A DNA stretch of 64,000 nucleotides from Methanobrevibacter millerae (GCF_001477655.1 NZ_CP011266.1:1906001-1970000); one strand, 5' to 3'; shown: positions 13,044 to 20,960, counted from the first letter of the stretch. A program made the numbers and translations. Notes: a model not told the origin generated them from the letters alone.

Positions 13044-13910
13044 TTAGTAATGACTTTGTGGAGTCATTCCTAAATGATGATCTTCGCTTTTCTTACCAGG
13101 AATTCCATAAGCATCAGCTCTACATTGAGTACATGCCCTAAATACTGGTATAATCTCTTCAACTTGTTCACGAACACTTTCCATCATTGAACAATCAGGA
13201 CGTGAATAATGTTTCATTTTTCCTAACGGTATCAATGGCAGAATATTCATTAAAGAAGCACCTCTCTTTTTAACTTCTTTAGCTATTTCAACAATGTGTT
13301 CGTCATTCAATCCAGGAATTAAAACTGAATTTACTTTAACAACCATTCCATTAGCTGCTGCCTTTTCAACACCATCCAATTGATTTTGAATCAAAATTTT
13401 AACAGCGTCATAATCCTTATAGACTTTACCTTCATATTTAATAAATGAATAAATATCCACTGCAATATCTGGATCAATTGCATTTATTGTTACGGTTACA
13501 GAATTTACACCTAATTCTGCAAGTCTGTCAGCATATTTTGGGAGCAACAATCCATTAGTACTCATACATTTAATTAAGTCAGGATGTTTTTCGGCCATTT
13601 TTTCAAAGAATTCAAATGTTTCCTCATTTGCAAGTGAATCTCCAGGCCCTGCAACCCCAACAACTGAAATTGGACCGTCTGCAGTTACATCATCAATATG
13701 AGCAATTGCATCATCAGGTTTCATGATACAACTTGTTACACCAGGTCTGTCTTCCTCATTATTAATATCCCTCGTACAGAAGTTACAGAATATATTACAC
13801 TTAGGTGCAACTGGCACATGAGCTCTTCCAACTTTATCATGCATTTTTTCATTAAAGCAAGGATGTGCTTTAGTTATATGTGCAAATCTTGAACCTTTAT
13901 GTTCAGCCAT
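13044..13910 (-). CDS. nifB: NifB-type radical SAM iron-sulfur cluster enzyme
   Basis: From the ATG at 13908-13910, about 11 nt after GGAGA, the product has 288 residues; a GTG three codons earlier sits too close to that site. The radical SAM motif is PKCNIFCNFCTRD (cysteines 38, 42 and 45). Other NifB features are HPCFNEKMHDKVGRAHVPVAP before it, DGPISVVGVAGPGDSLANEE, CMSTNGLLLP and the C-terminal FRACTQCRADAYGIPG. It lacks the NifX-like extension, as in methanogen NifB. NifB builds the carbide-centred 8Fe-9S-C cluster. The genes behind it are methanogenesis markers, not nitrogenase. Confidence 0.92.
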   Translation of the reverse strand: MAEHKGSRFAHITKAHPCFNEKMHDKVGRAHVPVAPKCNIFCNFCTRDINNEEDRPGVTSCIMKPDDAIAHIDDVTADGPISVVGVAGPGDSLANEETFEFFEKMAEKHPDLIKCMSTNGLLLPKYADRLAELGVNSVTVTINAIDPDIAVDIYSFIKYEGKVYKDYDAVKILIQNQLDGVEKAAANGMVVKVNSVLIPGLNDEHIVEIAKEVKKRGASLMNILPLIPLGKMKHYSRPDCSMMESVREQVEEIIPVFRACTQCRADAYGIPGKKSEDHHLGMTPQSHY

Positions 13911-13970
13911 AATAACCACTTCTCCATATTTATTTATACTAATTTTATAACAAGTGTTATATAAATTTTT

Positions 13971-14531
13971 CTACATTCCGTTATTTAATTCAGCAATATA
14001 TTCTTCAGCTTTTTCAATCCAAGAATCCATAATTAACTCATCAGTGGCCACGACTGCAATAATATCCTTTGTAGACATGTCTTTAATAATTTTAAAGCCT
14101 TCTGGTAAAATTCTGAATATTGCATCATAAATTCTTCTTTGAAGGTTGGAGTGCGGGTCATCAATAACCAAATTCTCCAAATCCATCTGATTGCCTGAAA
14201 TTTCAAGCTGATACCTGTTAGGTTGATAAATCTCATCTCTGGAAAATATTCTCCACAATTTGTTTAAAATATTAGGAAGATAATTTTCATCATCAACAAG
14301 AATCATCGTCACATCATTTTGTTTATTATAACTGAAACTAGCGACATCTTTGAATTCGACAACAGTAGAAGTTTTTTTCATTTTAATAGCTAATATAAAT
14401 ACCGGATCATCAGGATTGACAAAAGCTTTTAAATCATCGACAGATGCACCCAAAACCAAATCCTGAAAGATTTGTTTAATGATGATTTCATAAACTTCAG
14501 CACCTTTCTTATCATAGCATTCAACTAACAT
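13971..14531 (-). CDS. mmp17: Methanogenesis marker protein 17
   Basis: This 186-residue protein begins MLVECYDKKGAEVYEIIIKQ and ends YIAELNNGM. Its length and sequence match methanogenesis marker 17, found only in organisms with methyl-coenzyme M reductase. No catalytic motif is obvious. It lies 14 bp behind mmp15 and 60 bp ahead of nifB on the same strand. As I recall, structural work on the reductase activation complex of Methanococcus placed marker proteins of this set in it; that is recalled, not shown here. Confidence 0.85.
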   Translation of the reverse strand: MLVECYDKKGAEVYEIIIKQIFQDLVLGASVDDLKAFVNPDDPVFILAIKMKKTSTVVEFKDVASFSYNKQNDVTMILVDDENYLPNILNKLWRIFSRDEIYQPNRYQLEISGNQMDLENLVIDDPHSNLQRRIYDAIFRILPEGFKIIKDMSTKDIIAVVATDELIMDSWIEKAEEYIAELNNGM

Positions 14532-14545
14532 CGAATCAACCCTGT

Positions 14546-15787
14546 TTATTTATTATCTTGCCTGTGTCCCATTCCTGATACAAGAAGAGCTGCACCTACA
14601 GCACCAATGTGTTGAGAGTATTCAGGAACAATAATTTCAATTCCACCTAATGTTTCACTTACAGCTTCAACAAGACCTGAAATTAAACTTGTTCCTCCCA
14701 CTTGTATCAATGGTTCACGAATATCAATTTCCTGAAGTTGTTGTTCATACACTTGCTCTGATACAGAGTGACATGCAGCGGCCGCAACATCAGCTTTAGA
14801 TCCACCTGCTGCAAGAGTAGTAACTAAATCTTGAATACCGAATACAATACAGTAGGAGTTCAACATTGCTCTTCTCCAATCCCCTTGAACAGCTAAAGGA
14901 CCGAGTTCAGTAATATCTACATCTAATCTGCGTGAGGTCATATCTAAAAATCTTCCGGATGCACCGGCACAGATACCGCCCATAGTAAAGTTATCCGGAA
15001 TACCATTATTTACAGTAATTACCTTGTTATCCATACCACCAATATCTAATACAGTAGCTTCTCCTTTTTGACAATCTGCCAAGTATACTGCACCTTTTGC
15101 ATTAACAGACAATTCTTCCTGAATAAGTTCAGCGCCGAATTCCTGACCCATTGTAAATCTACCATAACCAGTAGTTCCAATACCATCCAAATCATCCCAG
15201 CCATAATCAGTTTGACCGAAAGCTTCTGATGCTGCAGTTTTTGCAGATTCAATGATATCCTTAGTTGATGTCCAACCAGTTCCAATAACCTGATTGTTTT
15301 CCATCAAGACCGCTTTTGTAGTGGTTGAACCGGAATCTAAACCAAGAGTAAGACCTTCTTGTTTTTCACGAGCAAGAATACTTCTACGAGTTACTGTAGT
15401 AGCCAATGCTTCCATACGGATAAACAATTCATCAGCTTTTGTTCTTTCAGTAAATGAATAGGTAACTACCGGAATACGAGTATTATTCTGTATAAAACGT
15501 CTTACTTCATTCCTTACAAGTGCTGCTTCAGCACATCTAAAACAAGTAGCAATAAATACTGCATCAGGCCTTGATTTACCTTCAACAATAGCCATGGCTC
15601 TTGCAATCATTAACTTTAAACTTGAACTTTGTGCAGAAAAACCAAATTTTTCATATGCCTCATCAATATACTCTAAATCGATTTCTGGAAGAATAATTTC
15701 CGCACCAAATTTATTAGCTGCTTTTTCAATTTCCTTTTGAATTCCACTATATTCAGTTCCACATGAAACTAAAGCAATTTTTACCAT
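14546..15787 (-). CDS. mmp15: Methanogenesis marker protein 15 (HgdC-like ATPase)
   Basis: The 413-residue product has an N-terminal region with [19 protein letters not shown] and [12 protein letters not shown], then an ASKHA-fold ATPase of the 2-hydroxyacyl-CoA dehydratase activator type: [45 protein letters not shown] and a C-terminal [15 protein letters not shown]. Activators of this kind hydrolyse ATP to push electrons into a difficult reduction, which suits reductive activation of methyl-coenzyme M reductase. It is 2 bp behind mmp5. Confidence 0.9.
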
Positions 15788-15789
15788 AT

Positions 15790-16242
15790 TTATTCCTCCC
15801 CTGACTCTTCTAGTGAATCAACAAAATCATTTATTTCATTAACCATAAGATAAGTTTCATCTTGATTAGTTGGATAAGTTACTTCTAAAACAGGAATATC
15901 TCTGTTCCTAAGCAAAAATATTGACAATTCATTTGTTCTTGCACAACCAATACAACCAAAGCCATATGGTGCACCATCAACAATAATTGCTGCTTCAGCT
16001 TCATCTATCAATGGTCCAATAATAGACATTCTACCACGAACACCTGATGGAACCTCAATAGCCGCATATTTAAGACCATTAATCGGGTCTTCTTCAGTAA
16101 TATTCATTGGTGGAGAATCAATCTCCGGATCTTTAATTTTTTGCCTAATTTGTTTTTGAAGAACTAAAGGAGTATGACCTTTCCTTTCAATTAAATCTGC
16201 CAAGATTAATGAATTTGGAGGATAAATAGCTACTTTCACCAT
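15790..16242 (-). CDS. mmp5: Methanogenesis marker protein 5
   Basis: A 150-residue protein beginning [20 protein letters not shown], with [20 protein letters not shown] and a short Cys pair in [13 protein letters not shown] that could bind metal or be redox-active. The sequence and gene order match methanogenesis marker 5. It sits between mmp6 (17 bp upstream) and mmp15 (2 bp downstream), so translation is probably coupled. Confidence 0.88.
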
Positions 16243-16259
16243 ATTTTCACCTATAATTT

Positions 16260-16727
16260 TTATTTATTTTCTAAACATTCATTCATAATTTTTTCAAAAT
16301 CATCAACTTTTACCGGTTTTTTCTCTTCAATTGTTACTTCTTTGGGATTTTCTAAAGCTTCAGCAACATAACCAAGTATTGTATATTCTTTTTCCATTTG
16401 ATGGAATCCTTCTCTTGGGCCGAATCTATGACCTCTACATCTTCTAGGATCCCCTGGAGCAAAGCCTCTTTCCTTTGTGAATATATGTGCAGGATCAAGT
16501 TTTCTAATCTCTTTAATTGCTTTATACACATCCTCTTTTTTTCCACTAATCATTGATCCATAACAAGTGTTTTTAATTGTTAAAGGAAGACCAAGCATGT
16601 GGAATTCTCCTACAATTTCACTTTCACTTACACGAGCTCCAGGTCCAAGAATAATCATACGAGTAATTACATCCGGATCCCAATCTTCACTACTCATGTT
16701 TACTTTAGGACATAGATTCTCTGACAT
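16260..16727 (-). CDS. mmp6: Methanogenesis marker protein 6
   Basis: The 155-residue product contains [38 protein letters not shown] and a basic stretch ([20 protein letters not shown]), matching methanogenesis marker 6. The ATG at 16727 has GGAG about 9 nt before it. The start region overlaps the end of mmp3 by 23 bp in another frame. The function is not established. Confidence 0.88.
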
Positions 16728-18246
16728 AAACTACAACTCCTTCTTTTTTATCTTCTAAACCATCAGTATTCGCAACCATCTTACCGACAATATTTGTTGC
16801 ATTGAATGATTCAGCAGTTGGCCCAAATTCCCGATTAGGTTCAAATCTAACACCAATCAAACCTGCAGTTTTTGATGACATGTTCGTAATACCAATTTCA
16901 CATTCATTTACAACATCGGTCGGATTGTTTTCAGGAATAAGACCTTTAGCTAATTTCTTGTTACCTTCAAAAATGGTAATATGCATTCCAGGTACCGCGA
17001 AGTGAACTTTAATTTTTCCGATAGGGTTTTCCAAAAGACCTGAAATTAATTTAAAGTATTTAACTGATCTTGGAGCATTATCAACAAATTTAATTTCACA
17101 TAATTCATTTGGACTGATGGCTTTTGTTACAACTTTTCCTTCATTAATAATATCAATAGTGTGTCTAGGAGATTGTTCGACAATTATTGCATCATCATCA
17201 GTTACACCCTCACGAATATGCTCAATACCCGCTTCAGCCAAAATTTTTCCAGCATCTCCTTGTGATTTACTAAGTAACAGTAATCTTTGTTGTTCAGATT
17301 TAACAGTTATGAAATCATCTTTTTTTGCAATATCAATAATTTCCATTCCTGCAGTGATTTTACCGACAGTGGTATGGTTTGGAGTTAAAACCCTGTTTTC
17401 ACGGTAAACATACATCCTACCTACACCATTACCTTCATTCCTAATAGTTATAGTACCTCTAACTCTCTGAGTAGTATTTTCTTTAGGCTTATCGATACCT
17501 TGCAATTCATAAAAACCAATGAAAGAATTAGAATCAAAATTAACTTTAATTCTGTTATCCTTAATAATTGAAAACAAGTGCTCAACACATATTGGGGACT
17601 TCTCATCTATTTCAAAAGAAATATATGTAAATAATTCATTTCCTTCCTCCAAAACAGTGCTCAAATCAGAAACAGATGCACTATCAGTTGTTGTGCTTCT
17701 TTCAATAATCGGTTCAATAGAAGTTACCACATCATCATCAGTTAATTCGTTTAAAGTCTTTTTACCACCAATAATACGTGCAAAAATACCCTTGTTAAAT
17801 GGAGGTACACCATATATATTAGTAGTATTTTCCTTAAGAAGAATTAAGTGAGTAGATTCATTACTAAAACTGGATAAACTTAAAACAACATCCCCCTCAT
17901 AATATTTGAATTCATCATGAGTAGGTTCTAAATCAGTTACAATAGGTCCGATAGAAACTTCAGTTGAAGTAGACCACCTAATTGACAAATCAGTAAAATC
18001 TTCATATTGATTTTTCCACACATCAATAATAGGTTTTGCTTCCTCGTCATCAACCAATTCAATAATAATAGAACCTTGGGTAGTTTTAATTTTATATTTA
18101 GTAATATTCTTTTCCAGTTCTTTTTTACCTTTGATTAGACAAATAATACTACCAGGAGTATATGGAGCATTAGTTTCATCAATTACATCCTGAATTGTAG
18201 AACCATCTGCTACATCAATCTCTTTGCCATTAACTTTAATTAACAT
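16705..18246 (-). CDS. mmp3: Methanogenesis marker protein 3
   Basis: A 513-residue protein whose first 60 residues ([20 protein letters not shown]) look like a ubiquitin/ThiS-like beta-grasp domain, followed by several beta-rich modules. In the middle [20 protein letters not shown] resembles a cyclophilin-like segment, and the C-terminal part has [20 protein letters not shown]. Length and layout match methanogenesis marker 3 (UPF0288). It heads the leftward run mmp3-6-5-15-17-nifB. Confidence 0.9.
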
Positions 18247-18356: not shown

Positions 18357-19340
18357 CTATAATTTAAAAACAGGATTTTTATTTTGATTAAAAACTTCTA
18401 TTGTTTGGTCTTTATAGGTTACATTCAATACCCTATCGTCAGTTACTTCACCAACAACACAAGCTTCAATTGAATATTCTGCCAAATAATCACAGATAAA
18501 ATCACATTTATCTTTACTAGCAGTAAATACAAAACCTGATCCAGGATATGATTTTAACCAATCATTCCATGGCATATTTTCATTTTTAGGAATATCTTCC
18601 AAATTAACATTAGCCCCTTTTTCAGAAGTTTCTAAAAGCATTTCCAGTGTCCCTAAAATTCCGGGATTAGAAATATCCTTGCCTGCTTTAATATAATCAT
18701 GTTCGGCCAAGTATTGTACTGCAGTGATTTGGTCACGTACAAGCTGAGCATCCTTATCATAAGTAGTATCCCAGTTCAAACTAAACATTTCATGAGGTTT
18801 TCCATCCAAATCAATAGCCACAATTACTTTATCGCCAGTTTTAGCATCAAAACTAGTAATTAATTTATCTTTCTGAGCAATTCCCACAATAGCTACCCCT
18901 ACAGAGTCACTATCGCCATCAGGATGTAGGTGCCCTCCAACCATTGGAACACCAAATTTCAAGCATCCATCTTTAATGCCTGTCAGCAAATCCTCATAAA
19001 TTTCATCATGATTAATAGACATTATATTAACCATGGCCAACGGTTTACCCCCCATGGCAGCAATATCATTAACATTAACAAGAACTGAACAATAACCTGC
19101 CCAATAAGGATTTACATTCATGATTTGACCCCAGATTCCATCCGCAGCAATTAATACAACCTGATTATTTCCAATGTCAACAGCTGATGCATCATCACCA
19201 ATATCAATGATCACATCCCCAGAAACATTATAAGCATCACTTAAAAGATTAACAACATTATCAATAGAACTTTTACGTGAAACTCCTTCAAATTCTTGCA
19301 CTTCCTTTATGAGTTTTTCAAAGTCTAAAATAAACCCCAC
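18357..19340 (-). CDS. mmp2: Methanogenesis marker protein 2 (AIR synthase-related)
   Basis: This 327-residue protein belongs to the PurM/HypE/ThiL-like ATP-binding superfamily, with VIIDIGDDASAVDIGNNQVV, NVNDIAAMGGKPLAMVNIM, VGGHLHPDGDSDSVGVAIVG and a C-terminal YPGSGFVFTAS. The set matches methanogenesis marker 2. The start is a GTG directly after GGAA, which is tight, so the N-terminal few residues are uncertain. It follows the DUF2117 gene by 4 bp and is 110 bp upstream of mmp3. Confidence 0.85.
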   Translation of the reverse strand: MGFILDFEKLIKEVQEFEGVSRKSSIDNVVNLLSDAYNVSGDVIIDIGDDASAVDIGNNQVVLIAADGIWGQIMNVNPYWAGYCSVLVNVNDIAAMGGKPLAMVNIMSINHDEIYEDLLTGIKDGCLKFGVPMVGGHLHPDGDSDSVGVAIVGIAQKDKLITSFDAKTGDKVIVAIDLDGKPHEMFSLNWDTTYDKDAQLVRDQITAVQYLAEHDYIKAGKDISNPGILGTLEMLLETSEKGANVNLEDIPKNENMPWNDWLKSYPGSGFVFTASKDKCDFICDYLAEYSIEACVVGEVTDDRVLNVTYKDQTIEVFNQNKNPVFKL

Positions 19341-19344
19341 TTCC

Positions 19345-20457
19345 TTAAATTTTATTAATTGTATATTTAATATTCATATTATTTATGATTTCAATGATTT
19401 CATTTTCAACATCATCAATTGAATTGAAATCTCCAGAATAATTATTATTTTTAAAAATTTTTTTATAAATTATATTGCCGATAATATCATCATTTCCACT
19501 TTCAACTTCAAAAATAACAGAATTTTTTGATTTAAAACCATCTTCAACTACCTTATCCAAATCACCATCAGTTATTCCTATTATTGGAATATTGAATCTG
19601 TATAAAATATCAGATGCAATCAAAGTGGTATCATCACCGATTGTTATTACACATGAAGCATTCCTGAACTTATATACATCTTCCCCTGCATGATCAAGAA
19701 AAGCTAATTTAAATTTTTCAGAGGTTTTATTTTCCAATACTCTTGGCGTTACTTTTGCCTTTCTTAAAAGTCCTGTTTTAACAATTGCTGAAGATAAATC
19801 AACATCCCCTAATTTTTCAACACCATGAGGCTTTATCTCTCCACCAACAATATCAACTATTTTATTGTCGTTTGATACCAAAACAAGTTTATCTGAAGTT
19901 GATTTTCCAATGACAACACTATTGACCATAATGTTTTCACCAGGACTTACTCCATGAATAGTACGTCGACTTTGACTTTTTTCATCATCTTTAATATGGT
20001 TTTCATAGATTTCTTCAGGTTCAACAATGGTTAAATTTAATTTTTTAGCAAATTCGTCTGCCAAATTGCTTTTTACAGCCCAATTAATCACACTACCATC
20101 AACTTCGCCGGGCCTTTCAATTTGAATAATTGGAGTATTATTTTCATCGATCTTATTTTTATAGTGGTTATATACCTTATATCCAAAAACCTGTCCTGTG
20201 GTAGATGATTTGCCATAATTTAAAAGAAAAATAACATCAACAGAATCCTCATGAAATATTTTAAGCGAATCGCTTGGAACCAATTTACGGGAAATATCAA
20301 TAATATCCTCCAAAGACTCGTCAATGACGGCAGTTCGACCCATCGTTCCACCCAATCTTACAGAAACATTCCCATATTCAACAATTAAATTTATAAGCTT
20401 CAATGCGTAACCTGAATCTATAATGTTTGGACCGTGAACTACAATTCCAATATTCAT
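19345..20457 (-). CDS. DUF2117-family protein
   Basis: The 370-residue product begins MNIGIVVHGPNIIDSGYALK and has RLGGTMGRTAVIDES, TGQVFGYKVYNHYKNK, RRTIHGVSPGENIMVNSVVI, a central VVIGKSTSDKLVLVSNDN and a C-terminal part with CVITIGDDTTLIASDIL. It matches the archaeal DUF2117 proteins that occur with methanogenesis genes. There is no membrane segment and no known activity. It overlaps nob1 by 4 bp upstream and precedes mmp2. Confidence 0.8.
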   Translation of the reverse strand: MNIGIVVHGPNIIDSGYALKLINLIVEYGNVSVRLGGTMGRTAVIDESLEDIIDISRKLVPSDSLKIFHEDSVDVIFLLNYGKSSTTGQVFGYKVYNHYKNKIDENNTPIIQIERPGEVDGSVINWAVKSNLADEFAKKLNLTIVEPEEIYENHIKDDEKSQSRRTIHGVSPGENIMVNSVVIGKSTSDKLVLVSNDNKIVDIVGGEIKPHGVEKLGDVDLSSAIVKTGLLRKAKVTPRVLENKTSEKFKLAFLDHAGEDVYKFRNASCVITIGDDTTLIASDILYRFNIPIIGITDGDLDKVVEDGFKSKNSVIFEVESGNDDIIGNIIYKKIFKNNNYSGDFNSIDDVENEIIEIINNMNIKYTINKI

Positions 20458-20960
20458 TTATTCACCTTAATCCTCTTTTTGAATATTTTAGATCCACATA
20501 CATCACAGTCATCAAAAGGATAGTTTTCCTCAAATTCCTTTTTGCATCCCTGACAAACTTTTTTCCAATTATATATTTCTTTAATACCCTCAGTTATTAT
20601 GCCTGAATATGGAATATTCATTATTTTTAATGTATTCTGAATAGTGTAGTCATCACTAATTACCTTAACGGATTTTCCTTCATCAATCAACATTAATGCA
20701 AGTGCTATTATCTTTTTATCAGGAAGAGATAATCTTAAGACATCACCGGACTTGGAGATATTTTCTTCAGTTTTATCCAAGTATTTTCTATCAACGTCCT
20801 GAACAATAAGTATTCCATCATCAACTGCACTATCATACAATAATCTAGATTCAAAATCCTTAATTTCAGCAGTGATTTCCGGAACAGTATAATTGTACTG
20901 TGATGTTGGTTTAAAACCATTAATGAATGCAGATGCATCTAAAACATAGTAAATTTCCAT
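20454..20960 (-). CDS. nob1: Nob1-type ribosome biogenesis endonuclease
   Basis: The 168-residue product has a PIN domain (YYVLDASAFINGF with Asp 8, an acidic middle region, and VISDDYTIQNTLK) and a C-terminal zinc ribbon, CQGCKKEFEENYPFDDCDVC. This arrangement is archaeal Nob1, which trims the 3' end of 16S rRNA. The final residues (KKRIKVNK) are basic. A TATA-like TTTATAAATTT lies about 25-35 bp upstream, so the message may be nearly leaderless. Confidence 0.92.
   Translation of the reverse strand: MEIYYVLDASAFINGFKPTSQYNYTVPEITAEIKDFESRLLYDSAVDDGILIVQDVDRKYLDKTEENISKSGDVLRLSLPDKKIIALALMLIDEGKSVKVISDDYTIQNTLKIMNIPYSGIITEGIKEIYNWKKVCQGCKKEFEENYPFDDCDVCGSKIFKKRIKVNK

Follow-up and report, generated by a model that had tools for sequence, protein, structure and literature searches.

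The nifB gene of Methanobrevibacter millerae very likely encodes an enzyme that makes the [8Fe-9S-C] cluster (NifB-co, or L-cluster) for the activation complex of methyl-coenzyme M reductase (MCR) and not for a nitrogenase; the catalysis, the transfer of the cluster and its route we infer from sequence. Three observations support this reading. The adjacency of nifB to the marker gene mmp17 is conserved, no nitrogenase acceptor has been identified in the genome, and the cluster ligands of the acceptor proteins are intact.

The gene run and the NifB protein

The window, that is, the whole stretch of 64,000 nucleotides that was analysed, belongs to a complete single-contig genome of 2.54 Mb (99.99% complete), whose closest named relatives are Methanobrevibacter from rumen and gut. 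On the minus strand, a PIN-domain gene and a DUF2117 gene are followed by mmp2, mmp3, mmp6, mmp5, mmp15, mmp17 and nifB (Table 1). The first-pass annotation had described nifB as following mmp3-6-5-15-17 in one leftward run with small gaps. The order and the coordinates are right, the spacing from mmp3 to nifB being -23, 17, 2, 14 and 51 nt in order. The same-strand run is longer than was stated there, and extends upstream to mmp2 (110 nt from mmp3), the DUF2117 gene and the PIN-domain gene. The products of mmp2, 3, 5, 6, 15 and 17 all score above the curated NCBIfam cut-offs. The nifB frame encodes 291 amino acids from the GTG at 13919; the likely start is the ATG at 13910, which is preceded by GGAGA.

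Table 1. Features of the nifB region of M. millerae, in positions of the window
Feature	Position	Strand	Evidence
nifB, stand-alone radical SAM NifB	13044..13919	-	69% identity to Methanothermobacter NifB, E 3e-140 to 7jmb; six fingerprint motifs
NifB loop EEDRPGVTSC	13728..13757	-	alignment and census; Glu55 replaces the loop Cys, Glu56 of ExRP kept, extra Cys64
TATA-like box TTTATATA, mmp17-nifB gap	13958..13965	-	sequence; genus-wide string count
mmp17, MCR activation complex subunit	13971..14531	-	TIGR03291 176.5 bits (cut-off 67.1); 8s7v chain G, E 7e-23
mmp15, BcrAD/BadFG-type activator ATPase	14546..15787	-	TIGR03286 714 bits; activator ATPases in PDB
mmp5	15790..16242	-	TIGR03271 242 bits
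mmp6	16260..16727	-	TIGR03272 155 bits
mmp3, MCR activation complex subunit	16705..18246	-	TIGR03268 603 bits; 8s7v chain J, E 3e-93
mmp2, AIR synthase-related	18357..19340	-	TIGR03267 431 bits
DUF2117 gene, in conserved run	19345..20457	-	PF09890; gene order conserved
PIN-domain gene, upstream end of run	20454..20960	-	PF17146, NF009145; gene order conserved

The product of nifB contains all six fingerprint motifs defined for NifB in PMC5715403, namely HPC, Cx3Cx2C, ExRP, AGPG, TxTxN and Cx2CRxDAxG. It shares 69% identity with the NifB of locus L081, whose sequence differs very little from that of the Methanothermobacter NifB of known structure; the phmmer match to 7jmb has an E of 3e-140. 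The ligands of the K-cluster, which are C18, H31, C115, C260 and C263 in Methanothermobacter numbering (PMC9692996), are all kept in the alignment as C21, H34, C118, C263 and C266. Against TIGR01290 the protein scores 305.5 bits, below the curated cut-off of 343.65. This model has 441 positions and includes a NifX domain, which the stand-alone NifBs lack; its cut-off is reached in none of the 152 genomes of the phylum, including G150, whose NifB is nearly identical to the solved one. One genome (G104, L047:364-2193) has a tandem of two NifB genes, the first being shorter; their identities to the M. millerae NifB are about 65% and 78%. Two frames that look like NifB fusions, of 1990 aa in G114 and of 605 aa in G113, were rejected, as they stay open only across N runs or unknown bases.

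Conservation of the nifB-mmp17 pair

The nifB region was taken from 144 Methanobacteriales genomes, of which 139 have enough flank. In 134 of these 139, mmp17 lies directly upstream of nifB on the same strand, and the aligned ends of the two genes are less than 0.6 kb apart, save in one g9 genome with 3.4 kb. Since the adjacency is kept in so many related genomes, it is not due to chance. A lack of conserved linkage had been named in the first-pass annotation as a refuting observation; the comparison over about 140 genomes found the opposite. The five exceptions all belong to genus g13 (Candidatus Methanovirga-type; L053, L237-L240; G127-G131), where nifB lies away from mmp17 and does not share a contig with the nif genes; L108, a named locus whose NifB has the g13 loop, is from Candidatus Methanovirga. 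An apparent loss of nifB and mmp15 in a closed genome of 1,767,403 bases (G123) was rejected, as the match stops at 1176001 and the sequence up to there consists of N.

The pair also holds together where the rest of the run is broken up. In G139 it is intact, at a distance of about 90 kb from mmp15, 5, 6 and 3. In M. cuticularis (L111) and in L042, mmp15 and mmp17 are more than 7 kb apart and mmp17 and nifB are not separated. In families f2, f3 and f4 the mmp17 and nifB reading frames range from a 7 nt overlap to a 6 nt gap in eight of the nine genomes viewed, among which four of the eight f3 genomes are not included; in the ninth, G144, the gap is called as 71 nt. Such abutting frames suggest that the two genes may be translationally coupled in these families.

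It is unlikely that nifB and mmp17 are neighbours through inherited gene order that has no bearing on function, and that NifB serves another 8Fe-cluster protein. The gene immediately downstream of nifB (mtnA-like by eye) was used as a synteny control, and it is kept in 47 of the 95 genomes where it is visible, compared with 134 of 139 for mmp17; because the genomes are related, neither count is one of independent cases. Genes downstream of nifB are common to several families, so part of the nifB-mmp17 conservation is syntenic background. The linkage is also missing in g13, and no marker gene was seen beside nifB in the Methanothrix and Methanomicrobiales loci. Mere inheritance of gene order accounts poorly, however, for the intact pair of G139, and a different lineage has paired nifB with another marker gene: nifB independently adjoins mmp2 in six Methanosarcinaceae loci, with TIGR03267 above its cut-off in both loci tested. 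Furthermore, no known kind of 8Fe-cluster acceptor other than McrC and Mmp7 was found in the host genome. The six Methanosarcinaceae loci are L137, L139, L142, L144, L148 and L159, and in several of them nifB comes after queD- and queE-like genes.

Adjacency does not imply that the genes share one transcript. In the genus of the host, the gap between mmp17 and nifB is typically 60-70 nt and has a TATA-like box at its beginning. TTTATA or TTATATA occurs in 55 of the 64 gaps of the genus (shuffles: mean 11.5, maximum 22) and within the first 14 nt of the gap in 45 (1.9 in shuffles), a contrast that is inflated by the kinship of the genomes. In M. ruminantium exposed to lauric acid, nifB is upregulated by 2.58 log2 (PMC5816558); the neighbouring mmp genes are absent from the list in that paper, which leaves out regulated hypothetical proteins. 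Because the box is conserved and nifB of M. ruminantium changes without listed mmp genes, nifB in this genus probably also has a transcript of its own, started from its own promoter, and one run need not be one transcript. The proposal of the first-pass annotation that gene order supports NifB as a cluster supplier holds to this extent: the order does favour such a role, but it cannot show the transfer of a cluster.

Nitrogenase relatives and the loop cysteine

As the first-pass annotation had observed, the window contains no nif structural genes, and none were found in the rest of the genome: a search of the complete 2.54 Mb detected neither nifDKEN nor a set of nifH, D, K, E and N. The nif operon that had been named as refuting evidence was thus looked for and not found, and the proposed role of NifB is not contradicted by it. 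The genome encodes one copy of NifB. A single gene matches PF00148, which by its partial match is CfbD, and the only full-length NifH relative is CfbC. These two F430-biosynthesis proteins are the only nitrogenase relatives identified in the host genome.

A rival idea is that nifB is left over from a nitrogenase or nitrogenase-like enzyme, or supplies one, and that its location is incidental. In its favour, nif or nitrogenase-like genes do occur in some relatives, and a nifB stands beside nitrogenase-like genes in three Methanosphaera-type genomes (G109, G121 and G124). In these three genomes, however, the NifB of the cluster is a second one and the mmp17-linked copy is kept. Relatives with nifDKEN-type genes likewise keep nifB with mmp17 and away from nif, at a distance of 180 kb from the nif operon in G013. 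In M. millerae NifB is intact although only CfbC and CfbD are present as identified relatives. The nitrogenase explanation is accordingly extremely improbable.

The Methanosphaera-type clusters are located at L050:5369-10377 (G109), on C39 of G121 and on C59 of G124. The order in G109 is D-like, K-like, H-like and nifB, and the second NifBs of these clusters have neither the loop cysteine discussed below nor the downstream cysteine. A nitrogenase-like pair was also seen in four genomes of the genus of the host, G058 (L242:7726-13919), G053, G054 and G095. In G058 an H-like gene and, judged by eye, an ATP-grasp-like gene accompany the pair, which adjoins a very large NRPS-like gene; the only NifB found in this genome is the mmp17-linked copy.

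The flexible loop of NifB has a cysteine that sits on the open iron of the radical-SAM cluster and a glutamate that binds K1; this cysteine has been termed strictly conserved (PMC9692996). The loop cysteine was missing from the NifB examined in 122 of the 144 Methanobacteriales genomes, and 103 of the 122 have another cysteine four residues after RPG. The residue is missing in most of the family Methanobacteriaceae, including single-NifB relatives with a nif operon. Families f2, f3 and f4 have it, as do genera g2, g4, g14, g15, g16 and g17 of the family of the host and one g7 genome. Six bacterial NifBs also lack it.

The loss could mean that these NifBs make a different cluster instead of [8Fe-9S-C] or are partly inactive, given that a residue described as strictly conserved is a glutamate in M. 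millerae and is lost across so many genomes. None of the other catalytic and cluster ligands has been lost, however, and G013, which has nifDKEN-type genes including a NifE above the curated cut-off, has a cysteine-less NifB as its only copy. From the gene content of G013, NifB can probably form the cluster without the loop cysteine. A different cluster or partial inactivity of these NifBs is very unlikely. Since the residue is absent in G013, in the other Methanobacteriales counted above and in the six bacterial NifBs, it was not treated as NifB-defining.

A connection between the loss of the cysteine and the loss of nitrogenase was rejected, because relatives with nifDKEN also lack it. The state of the loop cysteine changes at least three times on the tree. 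A swap of the loop cysteine for the downstream one is suggestive, but three changes are too small a number to support it by a test, and it was set aside. It is rather unlikely, though worth stating, that most Methanobacteriaceae NifBs are tuned to keep MCR activation steadily supplied with clusters; the SAM-blocking cysteine would then have been lost, mostly being replaced by the cysteine four residues after RPG, and the off switch would have been moved or removed. If this were true, these NifBs would amount to a collection of naturally occurring gate mutants. The natural variants without the loop cysteine offer a test of the role of that residue.

Several individual proteins deserve mention. 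The sole g7 NifB with the loop cysteine (L071/L199, G011) lacks the downstream cysteine, and its loop cysteine may be retained, regained or transferred. In NifBs of Clostridia, Synergistaceae and Spirochaetaceae records (L127, L128, L129, L132, L133, L141 and L164), the loop cysteine is missing from its usual place, and two of them have a cysteine at RDC instead. In L186 (G139) and L187 (G140), the glutamate of ExRP is a lysine and the loop cysteine is kept.

Cluster acceptors, proposed role and known systems

In the solved structure of the MCR activation complex (8s7v), two of the subunits are matched by the products of mmp17 and mmp3; the genes for McrC and Mmp7 stand at the mcr locus of the M. 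millerae genome. The nitrogenase-type clusters that the first-pass annotation mentioned for this complex trace back to real work: the passages of PMC12176620 on the structure describe three [8Fe-9S-C]-like clusters in McrC and Mmp7, the third of which lies at the Mmp7-Mmp17 interface. The neighbour of nifB, mmp17, thus encodes a protein that stands beside one of the clusters. The residues given in these passages as ligands or possible ligands are conserved in the host genome, namely C12, H49, C55 and H118 of McrC and H84, C90 and C143 of Mmp7. The activation genes for Mmp3, Mmp17, Mmp7 and McrC are therefore all present, with the cluster ligands kept. Beside the mcr operon of the host (L245:8654-10830), mmp7 is accompanied by a gene that by eye looks like the one for Mmp10, the MCR arginine methyltransferase.

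We propose that NifB would join two [4Fe-4S] units into one and supply it with a carbide derived from SAM. Its product would pass to McrC and Mmp7 either directly or through a NifX-like carrier. One NifX-like protein is encoded in the host genome, as a 109-aa frame at G000:C1:415464, and is a possible carrier of the cluster. The clusters of McrC and Mmp7 would form the electron path by which Ni(II)-F430 is reduced to the active Ni(I) form, with Mmp17 and Mmp3 as partner subunits. The role of cluster supplier suggested in the first-pass annotation is supported by the conserved linkage, by the genome without a nif operon and by the retention of nifB with mmp17 in nif-bearing relatives. Counted against it are the absence of the linkage in g13, the loci of Methanothrix and Methanomicrobiales without an mmp neighbour, the promoter-like box of nifB itself and the lauric acid response without listed mmp genes.

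The supplier interpretation is not new, since the NifB hypothesis for MCR activation is already stated in the relevant passages of a 2025 Nature paper (PMC12176620), which also cites NifB as essential in methanogens without nitrogenase. A NifB homologue was placed among the methanogen-specific genes in 2011, according to a passage of PMC3087415, and Lie et al. 2022 remarked that the nifB of Methanocaldococcus is not part of the nif cluster and could have a different function (PMC8809328). In the open papers searched, nothing was found that describes nifB and mmp17 as a pair. The additions made here are the linkage census, the nuance of a nifB promoter and the loop-cysteine finding. They bear on the question of how methanogens attain the very low potential that MCR activation requires. 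The conserved pairing of nifB with the gene of an activation-complex subunit, in genomes where no nitrogenase was identified, lends independent support from genomics to the proposal that such clusters served methane formation before nitrogen fixation. NifB is also a possible handle on gut methanogens.

The functional idea is shared with PMC12176620 and PMC3087415, which in the passages concerned argue from structure, phylogeny, essentiality and gene distribution and do not describe the pairing. The Methanococcus maripaludis MCR activation complex (8s7v, 8s7x and 9h1l; PMC12176620) corresponds to M. millerae in that Mmp3 and Mmp17 are encoded in the nifB run and that McrC and Mmp7, with conserved cluster ligands, are encoded elsewhere in the genome; in the passages on the complex, NifB is not reported as a subunit and is proposed as the maker of the clusters. 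The NifB of nitrogen fixers (TIGR01290) has the same six motifs of PMC5715403, whereas the M. millerae protein lacks the NifX domain, the nif neighbourhood and the loop cysteine, and falls below the TIGR01290 cut-off. The closest known counterpart is the Methanothermobacter NifB (7BI7, 7JMA and 7JMB). It differs in having the loop cysteine (TRDINECERRPG, compared with TRDINNEEDRPG in M. millerae). It is likewise a stand-alone radical SAM protein of equal length, about 69% identical, with the same RS, K-cluster and ExRP residues, and in its close relatives nifB also directly follows mmp17.
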